29,641 nucleotides of DNA from positions 1-29,641 of the IMG/VR virus record IMGVR_UViG_3300030102_000860. The stretch is one strand, 5' to 3'. This document shows positions 1,213 through 23,920 of the stretch, in pieces. Every line of letters starts with the position of its first letter. Within the stretch, counting starts at the first letter, position 1. Source of the DNA: a virus. The notes below the pieces were generated by a model, which was given only the letters and a program-made list of their open reading frames with translations, ran no database searches and was not told the origin of the DNA. A program made the position numbers and the translations under genes.

Positions 1213-2699
1213 ATTTTATATCCTTTGTATATGTCTTTTGGCCTAATAATATGTAAATGATTTTTAGTTCTAGTTGCACCAACATAAAACAATCTATTCT
1301 CATCATCAGGATTTCTTTCGAAATTTCTTTGTGTATTTAAACTTAAATCTGTTAATAAAACTACATTATCACACTCACCTCCTTTTACCCCGTGTATAGT
1401 TGATAGTAGTATTCTTGGGTCTTTGTTTAATTTTTCACCATTCTCTCTCATTCTTCTAATGTATCTAACCTTTTTTTCTGGAGCTTCATCAAACGCCTCA
1501 AACCATACTTTATCTGTCTTTAACCATTTTCTTTCTTTTAAACCCTGCATATCGTACGATGCATCCTTATCCATGTAGTCTAAAGATTTCTTTTCAAAGT
1601 TATCTTGTGACATGTAAGACGATACTCTTTGTATTTGTTCGTAATCTAAATATTCTTTATCACGAAGTTTCTCCCAATCAATGACAGCATCATATAAATC
1701 TTTTTCATAATTATTTTTAAATTTATTTTTGTAATGAAAACCTCTCGCATGTAATATTTTTTCTATATCATTTAACATGTATTTAGTTCTAGCCAATATC
1801 ATCCAATCACCAGACGACATATCTAACTCATTTACGTTGTGGTAATAAGATAACAAACCTCTATCCGTTTTAGGTGCCCACTGCTTGTGTATACGATTAG
1901 ATATTCTCTTAACCATACCCATAGCCACATCGTGAACAGCCCTAGGAACTCTATAAGATTGTGTAAGATTTAGTAATTTACCTTTTTGTGTAATAAAAGA
2001 ATCTACATCTGCACCGGCCCATCTAAATATAGCTTGGTCATCATCACCAGCTAGGTATGTGTCTTGTGTCTTGTCCCATATAGACTTTGCCATAGTCCAT
2101 TGTGTTTGAGATAGATCCTGTGCTTCATCAATAAACACAACATCAAATTTAGGAGACGCATCTGATTTGATAAAGTTTTCAATCATGTCTGTAAAATCTA
2201 TTAGGTTATATAGTTTTTTATACTCTTGGAGTTGGTGCGAAACTTCTTTTAATTCTTTTACTCGTATGTTTTGTGTGTGTTCTTTTAAATTAAATTGTTG
2301 CTCTGGTGTAATGCCTTTTAGCCTGGCCAAATGTATTATTCTTAATATATCGCTACCTGTTGTAAATAAACCAGAATATTGTTTGTCGTATTCATTGTAG
2401 TCTAATCGCATGTTTATTTTTTTACCAAGATCCTCATAGTGTCTACGTTGCATTACGTTTTCTTTTTTAATACCAAGTCTTCTAAAAGCCAAAGAATGAA
2501 GAGTTCTAAAATAAGGTAGGTCATCCTCTGAATAATTAAACTTATCCATGGCTCTGTCTCTTGCTTCGTATGCAGCTTTCTGTGTAAAAGAGAAATAACC
2601 AATCCTGTTTGGATCAGTCTGCTTTAAATATTTATCTACTTCATTAAGTAATGTAGTAGTTTTTCCTGTTCCAGGTGGTCCTATTACAATAGTTTTCAT
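1209..2699 (-). CDS. UvrD/Rep-like superfamily 1 DNA helicase
   Basis: ATP-dependent DNA helicase of 496 residues. SF1A motifs appear in order: Walker A GPPGTGKT (7-14), Walker B DEAQD (191-195), motif III GDDDQAIF (218-225), motif IV QSYR (247-250), motif V STIHGVKGGE (433-442) and motif VI LFYVGATRTK (470-479) with its arginine finger. The length is shorter than bacterial UvrD (about 720 residues), so accessory subdomains are reduced, as is usual for phage helicases. It probably unwinds DNA during phage replication or recombination. The start shares one base with the stop of the primase gene (TAATG at 2697-2701), so helicase and primase are translationally coupled. No DnaB- or T7 gp4-type helicase is seen in the window, so this may be the main replicative helicase (inference). 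Confidence 0.92.
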   Translation of the reverse strand: MKTIVIGPPGTGKTTTLLNEVDKYLKQTDPNRIGYFSFTQKAAYEARDRAMDKFNYSEDDLPYFRTLHSLAFRRLGIKKENVMQRRHYEDLGKKINMRLDYNEYDKQYSGLFTTGSDILRIIHLARLKGITPEQQFNLKEHTQNIRVKELKEVSHQLQEYKKLYNLIDFTDMIENFIKSDASPKFDVVFIDEAQDLSQTQWTMAKSIWDKTQDTYLAGDDDQAIFRWAGADVDSFITQKGKLLNLTQSYRVPRAVHDVAMGMVKRISNRIHKQWAPKTDRGLLSYYHNVNELDMSSGDWMILARTKYMLNDIEKILHARGFHYKNKFKNNYEKDLYDAVIDWEKLRDKEYLDYEQIQRVSSYMSQDNFEKKSLDYMDKDASYDMQGLKERKWLKTDKVWFEAFDEAPEKKVRYIRRMRENGEKLNKDPRILLSTIHGVKGGECDNVVLLTDLSLNTQRNFERNPDDENRLFYVGATRTKNHLHIIRPKDIYKGYKI

Positions 2700-4189
2700 T
2701 AATAAGGATCCTCTGGTTTTAGTTTTTTACTTCTAGGTTTCAAAACTTCTTTCTCAAATTGTTTAACTCTTATTACAGATATTTTTTTCTTATCCATATT
2801 TATTCTAATGTGTTCACAACCACAGTGGTCTAGTAATAACATGAGTGTGAGATCATACTTTTCTGTCCATCTATGCTTTAACAAGTATAAGTGAAAAAAC
2901 TTTTGATAAATAAAATGATGGTAGCCCTCGTTATTCCAAACGTTTCCATACATCATGTCTTGTTTTTCAGAGCCCTCTGCAGTTAGATCAGTACAGAAAT
3001 CTTCTAACCCATCCATAAGTTGTTCTAGTTTTGATGCGCCTTTTGGTGCCTCAACCTCTTCCTTGTTTGCCATCAATTCGTTAATCATAACATCAAAATC
3101 ATTTGCTTTTATTTTAGGAGGCTTCTTATAGATTTGATCTAGACAGGCTCTTATAAAAAGTCTCTGCTCTTGTAACTGTTCTGATTTTAGCTCAACTCTT
3201 TCTCCATCTACATTCATTCTATATATAGGTGGTTCTAATTTTATAACTTGTAAGTCACTTAATTGTGGAAATAGTATTTGTCTACCAACACCAAACTTTC
3301 TTGTCCTACATAATTTTTTATCACAGTGATTACACATTGGTTCTTCCTCACATTTATAGCCGTAGGTTTTCTTATCTTTCTTTTTATTTTCTATAACGTC
3401 GTCTGTGTAGGGTGTTGTAAAATACTTGTGATTAAAAGAACTTAATTTTGTTTGCCACTCTTCTGGCCATTTCTTTTTTGCGTAAACTATATATTGAAAT
3501 AATACTCTGTCTCTACCATCCTCTAATTTTTGTTTTGTTAAAGATTCTAAACAAGGTGGTCCATCATCAAACTCTGATGGTGGTCTTTTAATTTGTAAGT
3601 CTTGTAATTGTTGTGGAGATATTTGTATTATGTTTTGTAAAAAACCCGATAGTGTAACAGCTTTGCCTGTAGAATCATAGGCATATCTTGTCGTATTTTT
3701 ACAGTTAAAGTATGGTAAATTTAAAAAATTTCCTGTATCATCTTGCGATTTTAATTCAATTTGTTTTGGAAATATTTCTGCGTTACCAAATCCAAGTATT
3801 GCACTAACCGACATAAGTTTATCTCGCATTAGTTTTGCAGGAACAAGATCTGTTGTAAATAAAAATATATGTGCACCACCACTTTTAGATCTACATGTCA
3901 CTAGTGGTAGTTTGTAATTATTTATCTTGTTAATTATTTCCTTGTGATCAAGAGTGTATTTATCTACATCAATACATCCCCATCTACATTTGTTCTCTTC
4001 GTTTATAGGAACAATACCTAGACTAGGCTCTATACCATTAAGGTGATTCTCCCAGTGCTTGTCAGTAACTACTTCTCTTTTTACAAAAGACTTACCTTTG
4101 ATCTTAAGTCCATCGGCACCTTTTTTGTCCACATAGGTGCATCCATGCGCTCGCTTTAATCCCTCAAATATCTTTCTAAAATCTTCCAT
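2699..4189 (-). CDS. Archaeo-eukaryotic (TOTE-type) primase with a four-cysteine motif
   Basis: A 496-residue protein with an N-terminal AEP-fold catalytic core: CIDVDKY supplies the metal-binding acidic pair D74 and D76, SKSGGAHIFLF (101-111) supplies the S-x-H type motif with H107, and FLNLPYFN (155-162) fits the following AEP strand. This arrangement is known from TOTE conflict-system primases and from many phage primases or PrimPols. A second region carries C280, C286, C289 and C294 (CX5CX2CX4C) followed by RTRKFGVG, probably a metal site (zinc or Fe-S; not resolvable from sequence). It likely makes replication primers. It is coupled to the downstream helicase by a TAATG overlap. Upstream lies a 66-bp gap with a GC-rich hairpin. 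No Shine-Dalgarno sequence is visible before the ATG at 4189. Confidence 0.82.
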   Translation of the reverse strand: MEDFRKIFEGLKRAHGCTYVDKKGADGLKIKGKSFVKREVVTDKHWENHLNGIEPSLGIVPINEENKCRWGCIDVDKYTLDHKEIINKINNYKLPLVTCRSKSGGAHIFLFTTDLVPAKLMRDKLMSVSAILGFGNAEIFPKQIELKSQDDTGNFLNLPYFNCKNTTRYAYDSTGKAVTLSGFLQNIIQISPQQLQDLQIKRPPSEFDDGPPCLESLTKQKLEDGRDRVLFQYIVYAKKKWPEEWQTKLSSFNHKYFTTPYTDDVIENKKKDKKTYGYKCEEEPMCNHCDKKLCRTRKFGVGRQILFPQLSDLQVIKLEPPIYRMNVDGERVELKSEQLQEQRLFIRACLDQIYKKPPKIKANDFDVMINELMANKEEVEAPKGASKLEQLMDGLEDFCTDLTAEGSEKQDMMYGNVWNNEGYHHFIYQKFFHLYLLKHRWTEKYDLTLMLLLDHCGCEHIRINMDKKKISVIRVKQFEKEVLKPRSKKLKPEDPY

Positions 4190-5957: not shown

Positions 5958-7388
5958 ATGAATTATAAATTTAAAAAGAAGCCATATGCACACCAACTTA
6001 CTGCGTTGGAAAAATCTTGGAATAGAGATACGTTCGCATATTTTATGGAAATGGGTACTGGCAAAACAAAGGTACTAATAGATAATTTAGCGATGCTTTA
6101 CGATAAAGGTAAAGTAGATGGTGCATTAATAGTTGCACCCAAAGGTGTGATAGGCACATGGTACAATCAAGAGTTGCCTGCACATTTACCCGATCATATA
6201 GAAAATGTGACGGTATTATGGCAAGCAAATATAAATAAAAAACAACAAGATAAATTAGATCAACTGTTCAAAACAGGTCATGAACTTCATATTATTATAA
6301 TGAACGTGGAGGCATTTAGCACCGACAAAGGTAGATTATTTGCGGCTAAATTTTTAAGATCACATAAATCTTTAATGGCTATTGATGAGTCTACTACAAT
6401 AAAAAATCCAAAAGCAAAAAGAACAAAAAATATATTGTCATTGTCATCCATCTGTAAATACAGACGGATAATGACAGGTTCTCCTGTTACTAGAAATCCT
6501 TTAGATTTGTATTCACAGTGTGAATTTTTAGATCCTTTGCACCTTAATCACTCGTCGTACTACTCTTTTAGAAACAGATACGCAATTATGAAAAGTGCTA
6601 ATATATCTGGACGATCTATTAATCTAGTTACTGGTTATCAAAACCTTGGAGAGTTATCAGATAAACTAAAACCTTTTTCGTACAGAGTGTTGAAAGAAGA
6701 TTGTTTAGATCTTCCCCCTAAAATATACATGAAAAGAGAAATACAATTAACACCAGAACAAAAGAAATTGTACGATCAAATGAAAAGAGAAGCATTAGCT
6801 ACTTTAAATGGTAAAACTGTTACAACCATGACAGCGCTTACACAGCTTATGCGTTTACATCAAATAACGTGTGGACATTTTTCTGCAGATGATGGCACAA
6901 TACAAGAAATTAAAAATAACAGACTAGCAGAATTATTAGATGTGTTGGAAGAGGTAGAGGGCAAAGTAATTATATGGGCCCACTATCAACACGATATAAA
7001 AAATATATTTAAACTATTAGAGGACAAGTATGGTCCGGGTTCCGTGGTTCATTATTACGGCAAGACGCTACCTGAAGAACGGGACTATGCAATCAAGAAC
7101 TTTAAAACAAACGACAAGGTAAGATTCTTTGTAGGCACACCACAAACAGGTGGATATGGTATTACGTTAACACAGGCCAACACTGTTATCTATTATTCTA
7201 ATGGATATGATCTTGAAAAAAGAATGCAATCAGAAGACAGAGCACACAGAATAGGGCAAAAGAAAACAGTGACATATGTAGATATTATAGCAGAAAAAAC
7301 TGTGGATACAAAGATAGTGAAATCTTTACGAAAAAAGATTAATATAGCATCAGAAGTTATGGGAGAGGAGTTAAGAGAATGGATATAA
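5958..7388 (+). CDS. SNF2-family (SF2) helicase/translocase
   Basis: A 476-residue DNA-dependent ATPase with the two RecA-like lobes of Snf2 proteins: Walker A MGTGKT (32-37), motif II DEST (143-146, a variant of DEAH), motif III MTGSPV (172-177), a C-terminal helicase lobe with VIIWAHYQHD, then motif V-like GGYGITLTQA and motif VI QSEDRAHRIGQKK (424-436), the classic Snf2 signature. It is short, with no extra DNA-binding domains. Family members translocate on duplex DNA and remodel protein-DNA complexes rather than separating strands. In a phage this could serve replication restart or recombination (inference). It is transcribed opposite to all neighbours except the next gene, which it overlaps by 10 bp. 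Its leader is very short, with only a weak AGAAAG before the ATG. Confidence 0.9.
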   Translation: MNYKFKKKPYAHQLTALEKSWNRDTFAYFMEMGTGKTKVLIDNLAMLYDKGKVDGALIVAPKGVIGTWYNQELPAHLPDHIENVTVLWQANINKKQQDKLDQLFKTGHELHIIIMNVEAFSTDKGRLFAAKFLRSHKSLMAIDESTTIKNPKAKRTKNILSLSSICKYRRIMTGSPVTRNPLDLYSQCEFLDPLHLNHSSYYSFRNRYAIMKSANISGRSINLVTGYQNLGELSDKLKPFSYRVLKEDCLDLPPKIYMKREIQLTPEQKKLYDQMKREALATLNGKTVTTMTALTQLMRLHQITCGHFSADDGTIQEIKNNRLAELLDVLEEVEGKVIIWAHYQHDIKNIFKLLEDKYGPGSVVHYYGKTLPEERDYAIKNFKTNDKVRFFVGTPQTGGYGITLTQANTVIYYSNGYDLEKRMQSEDRAHRIGQKKTVTYVDIIAEKTVDTKIVKSLRKKINIASEVMGEELREWI

Positions 7389-7894
7389 AAGCACCGTTTA
7401 AAATAAATTTTTTAACAATAAAAACAGAAGGATTCTTTTTAAAAAGAAAAGAAATAAATAAAAAACTTAAAAAGTTTCCTGAAAAAAGATATGCAAACTT
7501 TCATAGTAATAGACAAAAATGCACTATGGAAAAAGATTTTGTAAAAATATTTGAAGATGAATTTCTTAAAATATCAAAATACTTTCAGTCTCAAATGAAT
7601 CTTGAAAGTTGTTGGTCAGCAACATACTCAAAAGGCGATTACCATGTTCCACACAACCATGGTTCTACTGGTTACTGTGGTATCTTATATTTAGATATGC
7701 ATAAAAAATCACCTTCTACTGTGTATATGCAGCCATGGAACGATGATTTTGATAATACTTTGTTATATGAACCCTCTGTGGAAGAAGGAGATATTGTTAT
7801 CGTACCTAAATTTGTGGTTCATTTTACTAGACCAAATTTAGTTTCTTTTAAGAAAAGAATTATATCTTTTGATTTTAATTTTTTTAAAAAATAA
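7379..7894 (+). CDS. 2OG/Fe(II) oxygenase-like protein, HxH type
   Basis: A 171-residue protein with the double-stranded beta-helix signature of 2-oxoglutarate/Fe(II) dioxygenases, close to the 2OG-FeII_Oxy_5 type. W79-x3-Y83 leads into PHNHG, with H92 and H94 as first iron ligands, then GILYLDM. The C-terminal EEGDIVIVPKFVVHFTRPN supplies distal H148, and KKRIISFDFNF supplies R160, expected to bind the 2OG carboxylate. The N-terminus is lysine-rich. The start overlaps the SNF2 gene by 10 bp and has an AGGAG-type site upstream inside that gene, so the two are co-translated. It shares the W-x3-Y-x8-H-x-H spacing with the genes at 8362-8940 and 20116-20700. Substrate unknown. The gene ends directly against the convergent M15 gene. 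Confidence 0.8.
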   Translation: MDIKAPFKINFLTIKTEGFFLKRKEINKKLKKFPEKRYANFHSNRQKCTMEKDFVKIFEDEFLKISKYFQSQMNLESCWSATYSKGDYHVPHNHGSTGYCGILYLDMHKKSPSTVYMQPWNDDFDNTLLYEPSVEEGDIVIVPKFVVHFTRPNLVSFKKRIISFDFNFFKK

Positions 7895-8365: not shown

Positions 8366-8940
8366 AATATTTTAAAATTATACGCTAAACTAATTCTCAT
8401 TTTATCAGACTCATTTCTTGCTACAGAATGTCTTATATCTGATTTGAACATTATTAACTTTCCTGGCTCTGGTGTAAAGTTAAAACTTTGCCATGTATAT
8501 GCATTATTTTTATCATAAAGAGGGGGTATTGTACGTAATAAAGGACCATTAACTTTTAGATTTCCACAATTTCTATCTGTTTGTAGATAATAAATAGAGA
8601 CTAACTGGTCTGTAATATGGTCGTGTTCCTCCTGATAATCTCCAGGTTTATAATAGTTTATCCAACTAGAATCACAATTTATTTTTCTGTTTTTATATCC
8701 AATTACATCTGCAAATTCATATATGTTATCATACACAAATTTTGTGATACTATTAAACTTTGCATTTAAATGTATTTGATAAGTTCCACAGGTATTAAAT
8801 ACGTTAGATTCCCAATTATCACCACCTTTTTTAACTTCTTTTTTAATTTTCATACACTCTTCTGTAACTTCTTTCTCTGTATCAAAATGTTTTTTATTAA
8901 ACACTTCTCCTACTGGAGTCGCAAAAAGGTTGTGAATCAT
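8362..8940 (-). CDS. 2OG/Fe(II) oxygenase-like protein, HxH type, in the lysis region
   Basis: A 192-residue protein with W93-x3-Y97 then H106-D107-H108 (EEHDHI), a SIYYLQ strand, PGKLIMFKSDIRH giving the distal H171, and MRISLAYNF with R182. This is the same ligand arrangement and spacing (W-x3-Y-x8-H-x-H ... H ... R) as the genes at 7379-7894 and 20116-20700, typical of phage 2OG-FeII_Oxy proteins. It lies between the XhlA-like membrane protein and the endolysin, an unexpected place for an oxygenase. The start shares one base with the stop of the membrane protein gene (TAATG at 8938-8942), and its end overlaps the endolysin start by 4 bp. All expected active-site residues are present, so it is probably active. 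Substrate unknown. Confidence 0.82.
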   Translation of the reverse strand: MIHNLFATPVGEVFNKKHFDTEKEVTEECMKIKKEVKKGGDNWESNVFNTCGTYQIHLNAKFNSITKFVYDNIYEFADVIGYKNRKINCDSSWINYYKPGDYQEEHDHITDQLVSIYYLQTDRNCGNLKVNGPLLRTIPPLYDKNNAYTWQSFNFTPEPGKLIMFKSDIRHSVARNESDKMRISLAYNFKIL

Positions 8941-9158
8941 TATGTCAGTAGTTTGTCTAAAAAGAATAACGCTACCGTCCCCACAGTAGCTAAAAGAACC
9001 CAGTAGATTTTGTCTACCTTGCCACCCAATTTGTCTAAATCCGAATGCATATGTTTGAGATGATTATTTTTAATTTGCGATATATCTCTTCTTACACCTG
9101 TCAGGTAGCCATACAGGGCTAAAATATGTTCTCGTGTATTTTTAGGTTCAATAGCCAT
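8940..9158 (-). CDS. XhlA/holin-like small membrane protein
   Basis: A 72-residue protein. Residues 1-50 are polar and helical (TREHILALYGYLTGVRRDIS, then NHLKHMHSDLDKLGGKVDK), and residues about 51-68 form one hydrophobic segment (IYWVLLATVGTVALFFL) ending in DKLLT. A helical or coiled N-terminal part followed by a single C-terminal membrane span is the layout of the XhlA hemolysin/holin-accessory family. Its position two genes before the endolysin supports a role in membrane permeabilisation for lysis. The alternative is a spanin-like or membrane anchor protein; no lipobox is seen. It is joined by TAATG overlaps to both neighbours (9156-9160 and 8938-8942), so its translation depends on the large virion protein gene upstream. 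Confidence 0.65.
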   Translation of the reverse strand: MAIEPKNTREHILALYGYLTGVRRDISQIKNNHLKHMHSDLDKLGGKVDKIYWVLLATVGTVALFFLDKLLT

Positions 9159-17147: not shown

Positions 17148-17311
17148 TAATTTAAAAAGAAGTTTTCAGCTTCCACCTCATCTTTTAAGTCTTGTTGATA
17201 CGTAGTATTTAATTTATTAATGATACCATCAATATCTCTAGCTTGTGACTCTGATATTGTATAATCATATTCTACACTAGGTCTTGTAAATGTTTGCACT
17301 ATCTTCGCCAT
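17147..17311 (-). CDS. Small hypothetical protein (54 aa)
   Basis: The frame runs from the ATG at 17311-17309 to TAA at 17149-17147 and encodes 54 residues: MAKIVQTFTRPSVEYDYTIS at the start, then a helical acidic half ending VEAENFFLN. It fills the 163-bp space between the nozzle-like gene and the beta-rich gene exactly, sharing one base with the stop before it and one with the start after it (TAATG at 17309-17313 and 17145-17149). No known motif, membrane segment or cysteine is present. The exact fit in a coupled series is the main evidence that it is real. Function unknown; small tail or assembly factor is a guess. Confidence 0.68.
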   Translation of the reverse strand: MAKIVQTFTRPSVEYDYTISESQARDIDGIINKLNTTYQQDLKDEVEAENFFLN

Positions 17312-19518
17312 TATCTTCTACCATCCGGTTGTATGTCTAATCTAAACGTTCCAATTTTCCAGTCTTGACCAGTGCCTGTATTTTCTACTTTTAAAGCCAC
17401 TGCTCTTCCTCTAGCTCTAGTGTCAACCTTTGTTGTTGACGATGTGATAGTAAAAGGTCCTAAAGAAGAACTAGCTGCAGTATCGTTAGAATAGTTTTTT
17501 AAATTTAATGTAACTTGTGTATTACCTGTTTGAGATACAAAGTCTGGTATAAATCTTCTGACCTTCATTAAAAACTCTCCATCTCCTCTAAAAGTTGGTG
17601 TTCCTGACACCTGTCCTCTTTGAAGTTGTTGAGTAATATCAAAGTCTCCTGATAATATATTAGCTGTAATTGCAGTTATTGTTCCGTTCTTGTTTTGATC
17701 AGTCCCTGTTTCGTGTTCATAGTAAGCTGTTCTTCCCTCTGTATTACCTACAACATCAAAAGAGGTATCTGTATCTGCATCATACTCTAGAGCATGAGGT
17801 AAACCAAACACGGCTGAATCTTTCCACATAGTTCTATCTAACGTGCCAATAGTCCATACAGGTCTTTGTGGCGATGAATCAAAATAATTATAACAAACCA
17901 TTTTATTTACAACAGAGGATGTTGCTGACGGATAAAACCACATAATCTCACCAAACAAATTATTAAGCCCCGCAGATATCATCTGATTACCAGATGATAT
18001 ATTGATATCATCAAATACAAAATCTTCTACTAAACATGGGAGTGATTCTAATTTACCAGCGTATCTAAAGAATCCATTTTCAGATAACCAGTATGCTGCA
18101 CCATCTACCTCTACAACAGCATTTTGTCCCGCAAGTCCACAGTTTGTACCAGCTTGTGTAAATGCAAAAGTAAACGGTTGACCAACAAAACGCATTAAGA
18201 ACAATGCGGTATCAGTATAAACATAGATTGCATCTCTACCTCTAATGGCTCCTCTGATCTGTGATCCGTCGGCCAGTCTCTGTGTACCGGCTGTATTGGT
18301 TGCTGTAGGTGTATAAGTATTAATATCTTCTTGGTCCGAGAATCTAATAAACATATCGTCTTGTGTAGATTTATTACCAATAGTTGTTTCTGTTCCAAAA
18401 AATACCAAGTGTCTATCCGGTGTTGATACTACCATGTGTCTTGAAGCTGTAGGAGCTCCAGATATAATCGTGCATCGTGTGTCAGTGGCATTTGATAAAG
18501 ATGAGTCCCACTCAAAAACCTCACCATCATGAATTAAACAAATAGCTTTATCACCAAAATTATCTAGTGACCACATACCAGGTTCTAATACTAAATCTCC
18601 AGATGCGGCCTCACCCCAAGCTACGAAGTCAGTTGTATTTGTTACAGTCGCCCCGTCGCTGTGCGCGGCTCTCGTTGTGCCTCTTACAGCTCTGGTAATC
18701 CCTGTTAAAGTTGTGCCACTTGTGACACCAGTGTAAGATATTTCTTCTGTTCCTACTTTTATAAAATTTGTTCCTGAACTTGGAAACTGTGATGCATCGG
18801 CTAAAACAATGCTAGTGCCTGACCCTCCAGTTCCAAAAGCATTATCGCCTAAAGCTCCGTTAAGTGTAGTAGTTACAGCGTTGGTAGCTTCACCACCCCA
18901 AGAACCTAAACCCCAACCAAAACCTTTTTCTTGAACTGCAGATCCAACGGGAAAGTAGTGTTGTACTCTAATACCTCCAGATGTCGTGGCTCCAGAACCA
19001 GACTCGTTTGATGGCATTGTAATAGTAATTGTCTCTGTTGTAGGCACAGAAGTAACCATAAATTTTTTATCATCAAAATCAGATGCACTAAAATTAGATC
19101 CGGTAATGGTCGTAAAATTATCTAAAAGAATAATATCCTGTGGGTTAATACCATGAGCTGTAGCAAAAGTTATTGTTACGGTCGGTGATCCGTTGGTCGT
19201 GCTAAATGCATTGGTAAGCGTTGTAGTGGATTTAATTGGGTGTATGTCATAGAACACACCACCTGAAAAAGCATATAATATCCTGTTTGTGCCTATGATT
19301 GCGTATCTTCGACCTAAACTATTAACAAAGTGGTGTAAACCTCTACCAGCTCCTGTTAATTCATTTTCATTTTCGTTACCTAGTTGGTTCCAGCCACCAA
19401 TTTTTTCTGGAACACCATATCTAAAACGAACATTATCACAGTCTATCCACTGCCCCTCGGCCGCTGTGGCTGTGATCTGTTTGTTAATACCCGGTTGAAA
19501 GCCTATCTTCTGTAGCAT
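17311..19518 (-). CDS. Tail nozzle/stabilisation-like protein (T7 gp12 / P22 gp10 type role)
   Basis: A 735-residue, beta-strand-rich protein. The N-terminus LQKIGFQPGINKQITATAAEGQW followed by WIDCDNVRFRYGVPEKIGGW resembles the opening of P22 gp10-like packaged-DNA stabilisation proteins and other podovirus nozzle proteins. The interior has repeated strand-turn-strand elements with many Asp/Gly turns (GRRYAIIGTNRILYAF, HLVFFGTETTIGN, GRDAIYVYTDTALFLMRFVG), compatible with a beta-propeller or multi-domain beta fold. At the C-terminus, QDWKIGTFRLDIQPDGRR also fits that family. Length fits nozzle proteins (T7 gp12 has about 790 residues). It would form the tail tube end below the adaptor. No Shine-Dalgarno is visible. 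A terminator-like hairpin lies immediately upstream, separating it from the oxygenase cluster. Confidence 0.65.
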   Translation of the reverse strand: MLQKIGFQPGINKQITATAAEGQWIDCDNVRFRYGVPEKIGGWNQLGNENENELTGAGRGLHHFVNSLGRRYAIIGTNRILYAFSGGVFYDIHPIKSTTTLTNAFSTTNGSPTVTITFATAHGINPQDIILLDNFTTITGSNFSASDFDDKKFMVTSVPTTETITITMPSNESGSGATTSGGIRVQHYFPVGSAVQEKGFGWGLGSWGGEATNAVTTTLNGALGDNAFGTGGSGTSIVLADASQFPSSGTNFIKVGTEEISYTGVTSGTTLTGITRAVRGTTRAAHSDGATVTNTTDFVAWGEAASGDLVLEPGMWSLDNFGDKAICLIHDGEVFEWDSSLSNATDTRCTIISGAPTASRHMVVSTPDRHLVFFGTETTIGNKSTQDDMFIRFSDQEDINTYTPTATNTAGTQRLADGSQIRGAIRGRDAIYVYTDTALFLMRFVGQPFTFAFTQAGTNCGLAGQNAVVEVDGAAYWLSENGFFRYAGKLESLPCLVEDFVFDDINISSGNQMISAGLNNLFGEIMWFYPSATSSVVNKMVCYNYFDSSPQRPVWTIGTLDRTMWKDSAVFGLPHALEYDADTDTSFDVVGNTEGRTAYYEHETGTDQNKNGTITAITANILSGDFDITQQLQRGQVSGTPTFRGDGEFLMKVRRFIPDFVSQTGNTQVTLNLKNYSNDTAASSSLGPFTITSSTTKVDTRARGRAVALKVENTGTGQDWKIGTFRLDIQPDGRR

Positions 19519-19550: not shown

Positions 19551-20123
19551 TCAATGTTTAAATATACAATTAACCACTACCCTAAATCTACAATTTAAGG
19601 GAGGACTAGCGGCATGTAAGGTATTTGAATCAAATACAACAGCTCGTCCTTTTTTGGGTCTGACTCTTTTTATCACTTTTCTGTGGTTATCAAAGAATAA
19701 AGTATCTCCATCTGAATCATTTACATAATATAGGACGCTTGTATAAATATTACCAGGATAGTCAGAATGCAATGACCCATGGGTTTCTTCATTTGCACCT
19801 ATTATCTGAACATTTAAATTAGCTTTTACTCTAAAAAAACTTTTAATTTTAATAGCCTTATTAGACTTATACATTTTCTCAAGTCGTGGCCAGTGCATAG
19901 AATTTCCTTTTTCCTCAACGTAAAAAGTATGGCAAAATTGATGATAATCTTTTTCAAAAGGTAAACCTGAATTTACTTTAATTCCTGAAGTATAGTTGTC
20001 TGGAATGTAATTTGCAGTGTGAGCAAGAAACCAAGGAAATTGATTGTTAAGATCTATACAAAGAGTTTCTTCAAGAAAGTCTTGATCTTCTTTTTTAAAA
20101 AAATTGTCTATTACTTTAATCAT
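19551..20123 (-). CDS. 2OG/Fe(II) oxygenase, HxD type (prolyl-hydroxylase-like)
   Basis: A 190-residue protein with a complete dioxygenase active site: H119-S-D121 (SLHSDYPGN), then a YTSVLYYVNDSDGDTLFF segment (the GD[TE]LFF turn common in prolyl 4-hydroxylase-like proteins), a KKGRAVVFDSNTLH strand giving distal H170, and R181 in FRVVVN as the expected 2OG-binding arginine. The N-terminus (MIKVIDNFFKKEDQDFLEET) is the usual opening of phage P4H-like proteins. It is the last gene transcribed in the five-gene oxygenase cluster, overlaps the preceding oxygenase gene by 8 bp, and is followed by a hairpin. Substrate unknown: protein side chains, DNA bases and small molecules are all possible for the fold. 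Confidence 0.87.
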   Translation of the reverse strand: MIKVIDNFFKKEDQDFLEETLCIDLNNQFPWFLAHTANYIPDNYTSGIKVNSGLPFEKDYHQFCHTFYVEEKGNSMHWPRLEKMYKSNKAIKIKSFFRVKANLNVQIIGANEETHGSLHSDYPGNIYTSVLYYVNDSDGDTLFFDNHRKVIKRVRPKKGRAVVFDSNTLHAASPPLNCRFRVVVNCIFKH

Positions 20124-20700
20124 AATTAGCTGCTACAGATACTCTTTCTACATTTTTACTTTTAAAAGGATATACCCAATGTGATACAAAAGATGGAAAA
20201 ATAAACATGTCTCCCTCTTTTGGCATTGGTGCCCACATGGTGTTTAAATCTCTTGGTTGATGCTCTCCATAAATAAATGCTAGAGAACCAGGAGATTCAC
20301 TAGTTCCTTTAAACCTATCAGCCTCCTCTTGTAATTGTTTAGGAACTTTTAAAAAAAGAACAGAAGAAAATCTACATCCAGTGTGTATATGTGGAGGATT
20401 AAAATCTCCTGCTTTCATATAGTTAACCCAAACTACTTGAGTATTTATAGAGGGTAATTCTTTATTATAGAAATCTTTATATAACTTTTTATAAAGTTCT
20501 AATTTATCTAAAATAATTTTTTCATACTCTGTAGTATTTATTCGATATTCCGTTTCAAAATGACCTGCTAATTTTCTATGATGTGAAACTTTTTTATTAC
20601 AAATTTTTTTTAAATTTGTAATTTGTTCTTTTGTAATTTTCGTTGCCATAATAAGAGGGCCAAAATATGGAAAGAAAAAATTATTTATATTTGAGTTCAT
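20116..20700 (-). CDS. 2OG/Fe(II) oxygenase-like protein, HxH type
   Basis: A 194-residue protein with W91-x3-M95 then H104-I-H106 (NPPHIHTG), a FSSVLFLKVP strand, and EGDMFIFPSFVSHWVYPF giving distal H174, with R186 in ERVSVAANYD. This matches the phage 2OG-FeII_Oxy_5-like pattern and the 7379-7894 and 8362-8940 proteins at the same spacing. A long linker between the strands (residues 120-160) carries AFIYGEHQPRDLN. The first 17 residues are hydrophobic and poorly conserved-looking, so MATKITKEQ at residue 18 could be the real start; neither start has a clear ribosome site. A GC-rich hairpin occupies the 48-bp gap just upstream. Confidence 0.8.
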   Translation of the reverse strand: MNSNINNFFFPYFGPLIMATKITKEQITNLKKICNKKVSHHRKLAGHFETEYRINTTEYEKIILDKLELYKKLYKDFYNKELPSINTQVVWVNYMKAGDFNPPHIHTGCRFSSVLFLKVPKQLQEEADRFKGTSESPGSLAFIYGEHQPRDLNTMWAPMPKEGDMFIFPSFVSHWVYPFKSKNVERVSVAANYD

Positions 20701-20709
20701 CTTTATAAA

Positions 20710-20735
20710 GGGGATAGTCGTGGTGAAACTACCCC
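20710..20735. other. GC-rich hairpin inside the oxygenase cluster
   Basis: GGGG-A-TAGT (20710-20718, with a bulged A) pairs with ACTACCCC (20728-20735) around a 9-nt loop. It lies in the 48-bp gap between two oxygenase genes (20701-20748), the largest gap within the cluster. On the leftward transcript the stem is followed by TTTATAAAG and then the next ATG, so it could be a weak terminator, an mRNA stability element or a site hiding the start. It resembles the hairpin at 4203-4232 in its G-rich/C-rich arms. Confidence 0.45.
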
Positions 20736-20748
20736 CATTCTTCCTATA

Positions 20749-21363
20749 TCATTTTCTAAACCACCCAGGAAGTCCTAAATGTAGTCGTCCATCGAACATA
20801 TTCTTTTCAGCTTTCTTGGAAACTTTGTTGTAGTGTAAAAAGACTTGAGCACAGTCTTGACCTTTGAATGCTTCTCTCCAATGCTCTAACTCACATCCAG
20901 AATAAATAAGCATGTCTCCTGGTTTTAAATCTATCTTGACTCCTTTTAATCCTTTTTTGCCTGATGGCTCTAAATATATTGGCCAAGAATCTCCACCTAA
21001 ATTAAGTGTAGTAGATATCTCACAACTAAATCTATCTTTGTGTCTTTCAAGAACATCACCTTTTTTATAAATTCTTGCATAAGAGTAAGTAGGCGTTAAT
21101 TTTAAACCTGTGTGTTTTTCCATAGCAGGCTGAACTTTTAATAACAAAGTCTCCATGGCTATATCGGCGTAGTGTGAATATGTATTTGGAACTTGATTGT
21201 CATTCCATCTACCCCAATCTTCTTCATGCTTTGATATGTAGTTGTATTTAAATAAAGTGTCAGCAACTTGTCTTTTCATCAAAAAATAATTGTAGACAAA
21301 TCCAGCTAAATCAGAAGACACAGCTTTCTTTAAAACAGTGTATTTGTTTTTTTTAAAACTCAT
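20749..21363 (-). CDS. 2OG/Fe(II) oxygenase-like protein, HxD type
   Basis: A 204-residue protein. H108-K-D110 (LERHKDRFSCEIS) gives the facial-triad start, after a YARIYKKGDVLE strand. LKPGDMLIYSGCELEHWREAF gives distal H161. The strand that usually carries the 2OG-binding arginine reads AQVFLHYN, with Gln173 there instead; R163 next to the distal His may take over, or cosubstrate binding may differ. The HKDR...EIS...LEHWRE combination is one I associate with phage and cyanophage hydroxylase-like proteins. The C-terminus ends in GRLHLGLPGWFRK. The start shares one base with the previous stop (TAATG at 21361-21365). Likely active, substrate unknown. Confidence 0.78.
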   Translation of the reverse strand: MSFKKNKYTVLKKAVSSDLAGFVYNYFLMKRQVADTLFKYNYISKHEEDWGRWNDNQVPNTYSHYADIAMETLLLKVQPAMEKHTGLKLTPTYSYARIYKKGDVLERHKDRFSCEISTTLNLGGDSWPIYLEPSGKKGLKGVKIDLKPGDMLIYSGCELEHWREAFKGQDCAQVFLHYNKVSKKAEKNMFDGRLHLGLPGWFRK

Positions 21364-22007
21364 TATCTATATGGTTTTCCTAAATTCCAAATTACTAAAC
21401 TATATCTAACACCTTTAGTTATTGGTTTAACTCTATGCCAAACAAAAGATGGAAAAACAACTATACTACCTTTAGGTAGTATCTCCGTGCATAATTTAGT
21501 ATTCCTAGCACGTTCAGGATCTTGATTTCTTAAATCAAATTCTAACTCTCCTCCTTGATATTTTTTTGGATCAGTTAAACTCACTGTCACAGATAGTTTT
21601 CTTATCAAACCATTTTCTGGTCCTTCTTTTTTGTAAGGCTTGTCCCAACTGTCTTGATGCCAGTCATAGTATTGACCTTCTTTGTATATGGTAAACTGAC
21701 AAGATTCAGATCTATCCCAATCAAAATTCCAACCAGCTTGCTGATTAGCCTCTCTAATAAAGGGGTGTATTTCTTTGTATATCCATCTATCGTCTAACCA
21801 AACAATATTAGAATCTCTTTTCTTTTTTAAATTAAAAAGTTCTCTTTCATTTAAAGGGTTCTTTTTTATATCTCTATATTTATTTTTTTCTTCTGCTCCT
21901 GTGATAGCAATCCCTTCTTTCTGTTCTTTGCCGTGTCTTATTATTAAATCACATATTTTAGATGGAAGCGCAGATTTAAAATAATAGTAATAATTATTTA
22001 AATTCAT
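21363..22007 (-). CDS. 2OG/Fe(II) oxygenase, PKHD/prolyl 4-hydroxylase-like
   Basis: A 214-residue protein and the most canonical of the set. CQFTIYKEGQYYDWHQDSW gives H117-Q-D119, KLSVTVSLTDPKKYQGGELE is the usual strand followed by a GGELEF turn, KGSIVVFPSFVWHRVKPITK gives distal H191, and GVRYSLVIWNLG gives R201. This matches PKHD-type hydroxylases of the prolyl 4-hydroxylase alpha-subunit family (P4Hc), whose known members hydroxylate prolyl residues or other protein side chains. The N-terminus is Tyr-rich (MNLNNYYYYF). The gene overlaps the degenerate paralogue upstream by 14 bp and the next oxygenase gene by one base. It is the best candidate in the cluster for a peptidyl hydroxylase, by family only. 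Confidence 0.9.
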   Translation of the reverse strand: MNLNNYYYYFKSALPSKICDLIIRHGKEQKEGIAITGAEEKNKYRDIKKNPLNERELFNLKKKRDSNIVWLDDRWIYKEIHPFIREANQQAGWNFDWDRSESCQFTIYKEGQYYDWHQDSWDKPYKKEGPENGLIRKLSVTVSLTDPKKYQGGELEFDLRNQDPERARNTKLCTEILPKGSIVVFPSFVWHRVKPITKGVRYSLVIWNLGKPYR

Positions 22008-22545
22008 ATGTTGTAGTTAAAAATATGTTACGCTTTCTAGACAAGTTAGGTGTTATAAAATATTTTAACGAGCTTGGAAACATAACAAAGAAATTGCTTT
22101 TCATTTGAACAAACCACTTCCTGCCCGCTCTACGATTATTATCAAATTCAATAACCATTTGACAAGATTCTGGTTGAACATCTATTCCATACACAAAAGT
22201 ATAATCAGGAGAGTGCCTTAAATCTAAAGGGTCCACAGTATTTCTTAAAAAAGATTGTTCTTTAGGTGCGTAAACATTTCCCCAATTTTTTACAGGAATT
22301 AAATGTTTTCCATAGTCTATTTTATGGTGATCTTTAAAATGATCCTGTAACCAAGATAATTCTTTTGAGTATTCTACTACATAATCAAGATAAGAGTAAT
22401 TTCTGTCATCATCACTCATTCTTTTTTTATCTATAAAAGACTCTAATATATTACCTTTTATTTCTGCTCTTTTGATTTCAAAATGTTTTGGAGTTTTAAT
22501 TTCGCCGTAATAATAATCTATTTCTGATAGCACCACTTTTTTCAT
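21994..22545 (-). CDS. Degenerate 2OG-oxygenase-like protein lacking iron ligands
   Basis: A 183-residue protein that follows the HxH-type oxygenase pattern of its neighbours without the metal residues. W88-x3-Y92 is followed at the same spacing by R101-N-T103, where the active paralogues have HxH. Near the C-terminus FVMFPSSLKYFITPN lines up with FPSFVSHWVYPF, placing Y162 where the distal His should be. The last strand keeps basic residues (RKRNIFLTTTYEF) at the 2OG-arginine position. The frame is intact, so it is maintained rather than decaying, and may be a binding, regulatory or structural pseudoenzyme. It opens the five-gene cluster. Alternatively it is an unrelated cupin-fold protein with other ligands; H111 and H81 are the remaining histidines in the region. 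Confidence 0.6.
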   Translation of the reverse strand: MKKVVLSEIDYYYGEIKTPKHFEIKRAEIKGNILESFIDKKRMSDDDRNYSYLDYVVEYSKELSWLQDHFKDHHKIDYGKHLIPVKNWGNVYAPKEQSFLRNTVDPLDLRHSPDYTFVYGIDVQPESCQMVIEFDNNRRAGRKWFVQMKSNFFVMFPSSLKYFITPNLSRKRNIFLTTTYEFK

Positions 22546-22548
22546 AAT

Positions 22549-23007
22549 TTATACTGAATTTATATCAATTAAATCCCATGTTTGTCCAGCTTCATTCCAC
22601 TGATATTCCCAAAAATTACCTGTTGCTGCCTCTGCAGATGCAAGATTTTCTGCTTCTTGTTCAGCCGTTAGGCTAGGTTTTGCAACTGGGGGATCCCAAG
22701 CCGCTGTTGATAAATTTAAAGTCCAACTATCATAAGGTTTTGGCGGTATAAAAATGTCGTTTGTTTCGTCATAATTCCAACCAACACCAGGGTAGTTTCC
22801 TCTAAAAGGTGTTCCACCTAATTTATGTGTATTTCTAAAAGTATTATAAGAGCACTTTTTCCAAAGCGGATAGAAGTGTACTTTTTCTAGGTATCTTCTA
22901 CCTCTTTCCTCTTCTTCAACACCCTCATCGCTAGAGGTTTTAACATCATCTACGACATGTACTCCTAGTACTCTGTTATCTTCATCTAATTTTGCAAAAT
23001 GTGCCAT
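22549..23007 (-). CDS. Fibre-associated conserved phage protein (cyanophage-type family)
   Basis: A 152-residue protein starting MAHFAKLDEDNRVLGVHVVD, a form frequent next to tail-fibre genes in marine and cyanobacterial phages. The middle has aromatic-rich blocks WKKCSYNTFRNTH, FRGNYPGVGWNYDETNDIFI and PPKPYDSWTLN, and the end has WEYQWNEAGQTWDLID. I recall the NYxGxGxxYDxxxDxFIPPKPYxSW signature in these families; function is not established, and tail-fibre chaperone or distal fibre component are the usual guesses. It lies between the Gly-rich adhesin (upstream) and the degenerate oxygenase (downstream) with 3-13 bp gaps, all in one operon. No metal or catalytic motif is visible. Confidence 0.7.
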   Translation of the reverse strand: MAHFAKLDEDNRVLGVHVVDDVKTSSDEGVEEEERGRRYLEKVHFYPLWKKCSYNTFRNTHKLGGTPFRGNYPGVGWNYDETNDIFIPPKPYDSWTLNLSTAAWDPPVAKPSLTAEQEAENLASAEAATGNFWEYQWNEAGQTWDLIDINSV

Positions 23008-23020
23008 ATTCTATAAATCC

Positions 23021-23920
23021 TTATTGAAACTTATATCTTATTACTACAATTCCTGATCCACCAGTATGGCCTGATCCTGCACCACCACCGGTATTAGCTT
23101 GCCCTGCAGACCCTGAAGGTCCAGTACCACCACCGCCGGAACCGCCGCCACCTGGGCCACCAGTTCCACCAGCACCAGGATTTGCGATTGAATATCCTCC
23201 ACCGCCACCACCGCCAGCTCGTGTTACGGGTGATCCTGTAATTGATGTTGAAACTCCCGGACCACCAGGCCCACCAGCATTACCTTGTCTAGCGTTTCCA
23301 GCACCTCCGGCTCCTCCGCCGCCAGCTGCCGATCCAGTGTTTCCACCAGGGGGCTCTCTTCCTTGTGCGCCAGGTTGTCCTTGAGGTGGACTTGTTGGAG
23401 GTTGATTTCCATTACTTCCAGGAGCAAATTGATTTTCACCGCCGCCACCACCAGAACCACCGTCTCCGTTTGGACCCATTCCACCACCAGCGGATGTTAT
23501 TGTACTAAAAATTGAAGGCTCGCCTTGTGAGCCTGGTTGATTTGTTCCACCAGCGCCTACTTGTATTGGATAACTACCAGCTGCTAAAGTTATAGCACCT
23601 GCTCCTTCTAAAGGAGATTGAGTATATGAATCATTAGCTGCTTCGTCTTCTCTAAAGCCGCCGCCACCTCCGCCGCCGTTTTGTCCAGCTGCATTGGTTC
23701 CGCCACCACCACCAACTACCATATAACTAGCTAAATTGTTTGGTTGAGGAGCTGGTCCACCAAAACCTGCTATTGCAACGTTAAATGTGCCGTCTCCAGT
23801 AAATGTGTGAATTTTATAATCTCCAGAAGTGGTTTCTGTTCCACCTGTAGCTACTACGAACTCTGACGTTGCAGTTCCGCCTCCAAAGCCTAAAACTTTA
23901 TATCCAAATCCAGTTGCCAT
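23021..23920 (-). CDS. Glycine-rich tail-fibre/adhesin protein
   Basis: A 299-residue protein. The N-terminal domain (1-70) has strands with YKIHTFTGDGTFNVAIAG and LASYMVVGGGGG. The remainder is dominated by polyglycine runs (82-88, 156-161, 199-203, 236-242, 257-266) with Pro/Gly-rich collagen-like stretches such as PPTSPPQGQPGAQGREPPGG (174-193). The end SGIVVIRYKF is the usual terminal strand of Gly-rich phage fibre domains. Polyglycine-II sandwich tips are known from T-even-type adhesins (phage S16 gp38), so a receptor-binding tip is plausible by composition. It follows the tail-fibre gene by 8 bp with a good ribosome site. The Pro-Gly stretches are potential hydroxylation targets (speculative). 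Confidence 0.72.
   Translation of the reverse strand: MATGFGYKVLGFGGGTATSEFVVATGGTETTSGDYKIHTFTGDGTFNVAIAGFGGPAPQPNNLASYMVVGGGGGTNAAGQNGGGGGGGFREDEAANDSYTQSPLEGAGAITLAAGSYPIQVGAGGTNQPGSQGEPSIFSTITSAGGGMGPNGDGGSGGGGGENQFAPGSNGNQPPTSPPQGQPGAQGREPPGGNTGSAAGGGGAGGAGNARQGNAGGPGGPGVSTSITGSPVTRAGGGGGGGYSIANPGAGGTGGPGGGGSGGGGTGPSGSAGQANTGGGAGSGHTGGSGIVVIRYKFQ

Follow-up and report, generated by a model that had tools for sequence, protein, structure and literature searches.

What does a run of five consecutive 2-oxoglutarate (2OG)/Fe(II) oxygenase-type genes do in the tail region of a marine phage? The question is raised by a 29,641-base viral DNA fragment (IMG/VR record IMGVR_UViG_3300030102_000860, hereafter the window), in which a first-pass annotation had noted such a cluster (P1 to P5) and two further genes of the kind elsewhere (P6 and P7). 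All seven open reading frames (ORFs) are present with exact ends. The cassette comprises P1 (19551..20123), P2 (20116..20700), P3 (20749..21363), P4 (21363..22007) and P5 (21994..22545), consecutive and nearly gapless as described, with overlaps of 14, 1 and 8 bases and a single 48-base gap. All five are on the minus strand, the same as the structural genes, and the late, tail-region placement of the cassette was borne out. The phage from which the window derives is a pelagiphage of the HTVC023P type, i.e., a SAR11 phage. Its closest annotated relatives across the cassette are the Pelagibacter phages HTVC023P, HTVC033P and HTVC027P and the environmental genome 023Pt_psg01, and the SAR11 host is inferred from them. 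The answer that we favor, with confidence balanced about evenly for and against, is that the cassette supplies the enzymes of a host-recognition module that can be swapped, and that these oxygenases would hydroxylate the phage's own adhesin.

The proposed adhesin and substrate is a glycine-rich tail protein encoded upstream of the cassette (23021..23920, minus strand; 33% Gly, 7% Pro), which matches PF21722 (Gly_rich_2) at 6.3e-7 and 30.1 bits, for a cut-off of 24.3. Between the two lies a small protein with a PHROG match to phrog_7759 (22549..23007, minus strand), and the other side of the cassette is flanked by the structural protein phrog_3287 (17311..19518, minus strand; 4.5e-100), the conserved flank of the module and the putative nozzle of the first-pass annotation. 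Of the P3/P4 loci whose sequence extends far enough upstream, all (71/71) have a Gly-rich ORF no more than 3.5 kb upstream of the cassette. As these loci had been found through P4, P3 or P5, contigs were also sampled independently, by adhesin motif and by an unrelated helicase gene. When the C-terminal motif of the Gly-rich protein was the sole means of finding contigs, a 2OG gene was present within 4 kb downstream in 24/39 and upstream in 0/16. The helicase-sampled contigs revealed a second type of locus, with divergent P4 and P3 adjoining Kelch-repeat proteins, and contigs found by the Kelch motif carried 2OG genes downstream in 37/44 cases and upstream in 0/26. An exclusive link of the cassette to Gly-rich proteins was dropped on account of these Kelch-type loci.

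Adhesin types were assigned by composition and repeat motifs, PF21722 being too insensitive in some phages to serve as a presence test. The Kelch identity in the related loci comes from a match of P0008 to Kelch-like protein 2 (9.9e-10), the Pfam Kelch match being weak. Both the Gly-rich and the Kelch proteins are putative receptor-binding proteins. Two narrower descriptions of the Gly-rich protein were tried and rejected. Pro is followed by Gly in 30% of cases, no higher than the 32% Gly content predicts, and no Pro-Gly preference is therefore claimed. Similarly, a collagen-like GXY pattern is not a general rule, five consecutive GXY occurring only in the Gly-rich protein among the structural proteins of the window. 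In one Kelch-type locus, a 227-amino-acid protein (L379:3747-4430) lies between the adhesin and the cassette, as it does in L378, and is possibly an adhesin chaperone.

The adhesin and the cassette are exchanged as a block, and the oxygenase subtype is co-inherited with the adhesin type. On trees built with FastTree from these short proteins, the adhesin type changes once for P4 (224 loci) and once for P3 (186 loci), against 14 changes for the neighboring phrog_3287 (82 loci; shuffles average 19). The same was seen when only loci sampled by adhesin motif, plus six sampled by helicase, were retained: one change for P4 (91 loci; shuffles mean 28.6, minimum 20), one for P3 (73 loci; mean 21.6, minimum 15) and six for phrog_3287 (34 loci; mean 10.6, minimum 7). 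A quick IQ-TREE run gave a support of 99 to the Kelch-type P4 clade. Pairwise identities agree with the trees. In 67 locus pairs with phrog_3287 at least 80% identical and different adhesins, P4 identity is at most 48%, versus a median of 82% (minimum 51%) in 113 comparison pairs with the same adhesin type; for example, L112 and L453, whose adhesins differ, share 94% identity in phrog_3287, 40% in P4 and 60% in P3. Proximity alone does not predict this result for P3, since it lies nearer to phrog_3287 (median 109 bp in Gly-rich loci, 18 bp in Kelch loci) than to the adhesin (2.0-2.9 kb). None of four genes on the upstream side of the adhesin clearly follows its type, which sets a limit to the exchanged block. 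The metal triads are fully conserved in both the Gly-rich and the Kelch subtype. The idea of the first-pass annotation that virion proteins are modified gains support because the cassette subtype follows the adhesin type; its catalytic and substrate parts stay conjectural.

Six of the proteins (P1, P2, P3, P4, P6 and P7) are members of the 2OG/Fe(II) oxygenase superfamily, combining the double-stranded beta-helix fold with a metal triad; the fold was taken from a structure model for P3, from Pfam matches above the curated cut-off for P1, P2, P4 and P7, and from PHROG for P6. The translations carry HxD..H in P1 (H119/D121/H170), P3 (H108/D110/H161) and P4 (H117/D119/H191), HxH..H in P2 (H104/H106/H174), P6 (7379..7894, plus strand) and P7 (8362..8940, minus strand, adjoining the endolysin gene), and neither in P5, which is the motif tally given before. 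The count of seven 2OG oxygenases holds for the shared fold superfamily and falls to six for the triad, as P5 is without metal ligands. P1 and P4 match PF13640 (3.9e-9 and 2.5e-15), and P2 and P7 match PF13759 (1.3e-16 and 8.8e-18). P6 reaches 26.9 bits against PF13759, 0.1 bit short of the cut-off of 27, and its membership rests on phrog_81 (7.4e-25), which P2 also matches. P3 and P5 gave no 2OG family match in the Pfam scan. Each of H119, D121 and H170 is at least 90% conserved in the P1 family. P4 keeps its triad and its Arg (R201) across 224 loci wherever aligned, and resembles the PKHD-type hydroxylase PiuC (PF13640; 9ghl, 3dkq), the match spanning the catalytic domain and bringing both HxD..H and R into register; the relationship is distant (phmmer 2e-7 to 9ghl), and P4 is encoded in a phage tail locus. 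The HxH..H site does not point to a different chemistry, being the ordinary site of the PF13759 subfamily: the HDH of P7 aligns with HIH in two solved structures, 3bvc (4.6e-5) and 2rg4. The seven proteins are of a single fold superfamily and show only weak mutual BLASTP matches (up to about 40% identity on short stretches), in agreement with the earlier view that they do not stem from one recent duplication.

Two of these families carry other names in PHROG: P3 belongs to phrog_2954 (4.1e-51), labeled "ferrochelatase", and P1 to phrog_274 (1.8e-36), labeled "DNA endonuclease V". In a check of a handful of members of the two families, both labels look wrong, because P3 and P1 are 2OG-oxygenase-type proteins. 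The AlphaFold model of P3 (predicted local distance difference test (pLDDT) 89, predicted template modeling score (pTM) 0.85) has as its top PDB fold match the Pseudomonas putida prolyl-4-hydroxylase (E 3e-9; 4j25, and 4iw3 with EF-Tu), at about 12-17% identity, so that substrates may differ. The best 50 of the 764 PDB chains matched at E<=1e-3 are all 2OG-oxygenase entries, and H108, D110 and H161 are invariant in the family. No ferrochelatase Pfam model matched P3 or six labeled relatives at E<=1. P1 and the "DNA endonuclease" SSM1_053 of S-SM1 match PF13640, and no endonuclease domain model was found for these two or the other labeled relatives tested; denV was also absent from the cyanophage genomes sequenced at the time of one review (PMC2984593). 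The "ferrochelatase" (phrog_2954, T4-GC 615) of S-PM2, Syn9, S-SM1 and many RefSeq cyanophages likewise appears to be a 2OG oxygenase, and the label "DNA endonuclease V" (phrog_274 and related) is found on 2OG-type proteins of cyanophages (L168:6722-7246 and 7249-7737).

Profile-profile comparison alone did not place P3 and did not clearly place P5; structure placed both. The AlphaFold and fold comparison proposed by the first-pass annotation matched both proteins to 2OG oxygenases and left P5 without a metal site. P5 is a conserved pseudo-oxygenase that has kept the 2OG fold, lost the ligands and remained under purifying selection. Its model (pLDDT 90, pTM 0.86) is closest to the PF13759 proteins 3bvc and 2rg4 (E 3.5e-7), which share the HxH..H site with P7 and whose PDB titles assign no function; the TlxI structures and PBCV-1 vCPH (5c5t) are also among its fold matches. 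Across 64 relatives the ligand positions, mapped by eye from the PF13759 pattern, are occupied by D/N108, R/K/L110 and Y/F162, and Leu mostly takes the place of the C-terminal Arg. Independently of this mapping, not a single His is conserved in 90% of the 64 relatives. The ratio of nonsynonymous to synonymous substitution rates (dN/dS), taken from comparisons at dS 0.1-0.6 to avoid saturation, is 0.18 for P5, 0.16 for P4 and 0.13 for P3. P5 is therefore maintained much like its catalytic neighbors. It heads the cassette, usually with P4 directly next at a 14-base overlap (41/49 in the P4-sampled set, 10/14 in the P5-sampled set), and is present in 92/176 Gly-rich cassettes and 0/55 Kelch cassettes. 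The phrog_7759 homolog is similarly distributed, with 149 Gly-rich-type loci and no Kelch-type locus.

The module would pair a distal tail adhesin with 2OG/Fe(II) oxygenases of its own, encoded after it; these would be made late, inside the cell, from the same transcription unit as the adhesin. With bound Fe(II) and 2-oxoglutarate, P3 and P4, with P1 and P2 as accessory enzymes, would hydroxylate side chains of the repetitive adhesin, either ahead of tail assembly or while it proceeds, and the outcome may be a tuning of adhesin folding, stability or receptor binding. That the closest folds to P3 are protein prolyl hydroxylases counts for this proposal. A precedent for viral hydroxylases with repetitive proteins as presumed targets is given by the collagen hydroxylase/glycosyltransferase of Mimivirus and the prolyl hydroxylase of PBCV-1; these are eukaryotic viruses, not known to have a swappable adhesin pairing. 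P5, as a dead PF13759-type copy, may serve as a partner without catalysis of its own, holding either the substrate or the active enzymes. A comparable arrangement is the TlxI/TlxJ heterodimer (7vbr, 7vbq; PMC12141560), where an active 2OG oxygenase is aided by a same-fold partner that is not a working oxygenase. TlxI and TlxJ are, however, fungal natural-product enzymes, and what is missing from TlxI is the 2OG-binding Arg, whereas P5 is without the metal ligands and, in most cases, without the Arg as well; the partner of P5 is hypothetical. The contents of the cassette vary, as would be expected of a changeable set of modifiers more than of a fixed pathway, a single multi-step pathway being possible. 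A broader version of the proposal, in which marine phages use adhesin-specific enzyme batteries to hydroxylate their own adhesins, with a dead member as substrate adaptor and adhesin and enzymes swapped as a unit, is put forward more tentatively, as we think it somewhat less probable than its failure.

Several observations weigh against adhesin hydroxylation. P3 has no Arg at the usual 2OG-binding position, for which the invariant R163 and Q173 may stand in. No 2OG gene of these families lies within 4 kb downstream of 15/39 motif-found Gly-rich genes, so that the adhesin fold does not always require oxygenases. In Syn30 and AG-345-E08, P3 is found away from any strong Gly-rich gene, and P6 and P7 of the window lie outside the cassette. 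In addition, a single recombination at the conserved flanks would carry the oxygenases along without any functional need, if module types rarely recombine internally. Since exchange as a block does not require that the parts work together, the main rival is passive linkage, whereby the accessory oxygenases act on another target, such as host proteins or metabolites, and merely sit inside a tail-locus exchange block. The literature treats such genes as auxiliary metabolic genes (PMC9599517, PMC11561400, PMC9602691), the conserved flanking gene could act as a recombination anchor, and the location of P6 and P7 elsewhere also counts for it. This explanation is nevertheless hard to reconcile with P3 following the adhesin despite being nearer to phrog_3287, with the restriction of P5 to one adhesin type and with the recurrence of the P4-P3-adhesin layout among podovirus-type as well as myovirus phages, which infect different hosts, and we regard it as a serious but rather unlikely alternative.

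The same co-inheritance data and late position would be expected if the enzymes oxidized a host surface component seen by the adhesin, with superinfection excluded or the binding of progeny to debris prevented; the glycosyltransferase genes downstream in HTVC023P and HTVC027P could also be taken this way. The closest characterized folds to P3, however, are protein hydroxylases acting in the cell, and no evidence of envelope targeting turned up, no systematic search having been made, which leaves such masking of the receptor improbable. Roles in DNA modification or heme metabolism are less likely still. Some other phage-encoded 2OG enzymes oxidize 5-methylcytosine, and base oxidation in packaged phage DNA could be imagined on that precedent. 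In the Pfam scan of the seven proteins, however, no TET/JBP model matched and the best AlkB-type (PF13532) match, that of P4, was below cut-off (15.1 against 31.2 bits); nor would a match to adhesin type be expected for a DNA substrate, and we consider this role very unlikely. We give equally little credence to the heme/iron pathway of the published annotation, in which a ferrochelatase and 2OG enzymes would cooperate: the two labels do co-occur (PMC9599517, PMC11561400), but the "ferrochelatase" has a 2OG fold with an invariant HxD..H and, as noted above, no ferrochelatase match, so that the published co-occurrence is one of two 2OG oxygenases.

The presence of multiple 2OG genes per phage has already been published, and the gene count is therefore not the news. 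The HTVC023P-type phages were reported to have eight non-orthologous 2OG genes, co-located with ferrochelatases (Wittmers 2022; PMC9599517), and S-SCSM1 has 24 2OG oxygenase genes, the viral function of which was described as uninvestigated (PMC9602691). Runs of 4-9 such genes adjoin tail fiber genes in HTVC008M, Mosig, Bellamy, S-SM1 and S-CREM1. The notion that seven in under 30 kb is unusual does not survive these comparisons. The adjacency of the 2OG and "ferrochelatase" genes in this same phage group and these gene families was likewise reported in PMC9599517, where the clusters were taken for auxiliary metabolic genes that had a heme partner; in the present analysis, in contrast, that partner is another 2OG oxygenase, a pseudo-oxygenase is among the members, and the cluster and a tail adhesin are inherited together. 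It is this pairing of the cassette with the adhesin that appears to be new: within our partial coverage of the literature we did not find it described, nor any paper linking a phage tail or receptor-binding protein with a hydroxylase.

Among HTVC023P-type contigs the commonest gene orders are P4-X66-P3 (51 loci) and P5-P4-X66-P3 (29 loci), X66 being a further 2OG gene (HTVC023P gp66), and the P5-P4-P3-P2-P1 order of the window is rare. A Gly-rich ORF is nearby in 10/10 isolates examined with P4 and P3 clustered, both podovirus-type and myovirus. The adhesin-P4-P3 layout recurs in the Kyanoviridae, the minimal set being that of S-MbCM6 (Gly-rich, then P4, then P3). The layout is less regular where P3 occurs without P4, as in Syn30, AG-345-E08 and S-PM2. 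S-SCSM1 gp124 joins a P3 domain and a second 2OG domain in one protein. Where the text on that phage describes the virion proteome, the non-structural proteins it names include no oxygenase (PMC9602691), in keeping with enzyme action inside the cell.

Few "auxiliary metabolic genes" have been reported from marine phages in larger numbers than those for 2OG oxygenases. That core 2OG genes travel with an adhesin offers a concrete candidate substrate and would shift attention from host metabolism to virion maturation; if the proposal is right, a large share of the ocean-virome "2OG auxiliary metabolic genes" would be virion-maturation genes. The "ferrochelatase" and 2OG genes reported to be co-enriched seasonally (PMC11561400) would then be two 2OG oxygenases of one module, and seasonal or co-occurrence claims resting on the "ferrochelatase" label need re-reading. 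The conserved pseudo-oxygenase, tied to one adhesin type, provides a handle on how these enzymes choose their substrates.

Other features were noted in passing. S-CREM1 (L295:15301-24780) has nine consecutive genes annotated as 2OG or JmjC oxygenases, with a "collagen-like" protein and a tryptophan halogenase encoded ahead of them. Tryptophan halogenase genes also neighbor 2OG clusters and either tail or terminase genes in several marine phages, at L165:13199-15158, L291:12965-16070 and L293:19633-22744, and their products might modify virion proteins too. In the replication block of the window, a primase of the archaeo-eukaryotic type (PF22548, AEP-TOTE) adjoins a UvrD-like helicase (2699-4189 and 1209-2699). 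Finally, a 72-amino-acid protein with a hydrophobic C-terminal stretch (8940-9158), located between a large structural gene and the P7/endolysin genes, is holin-like by eye.

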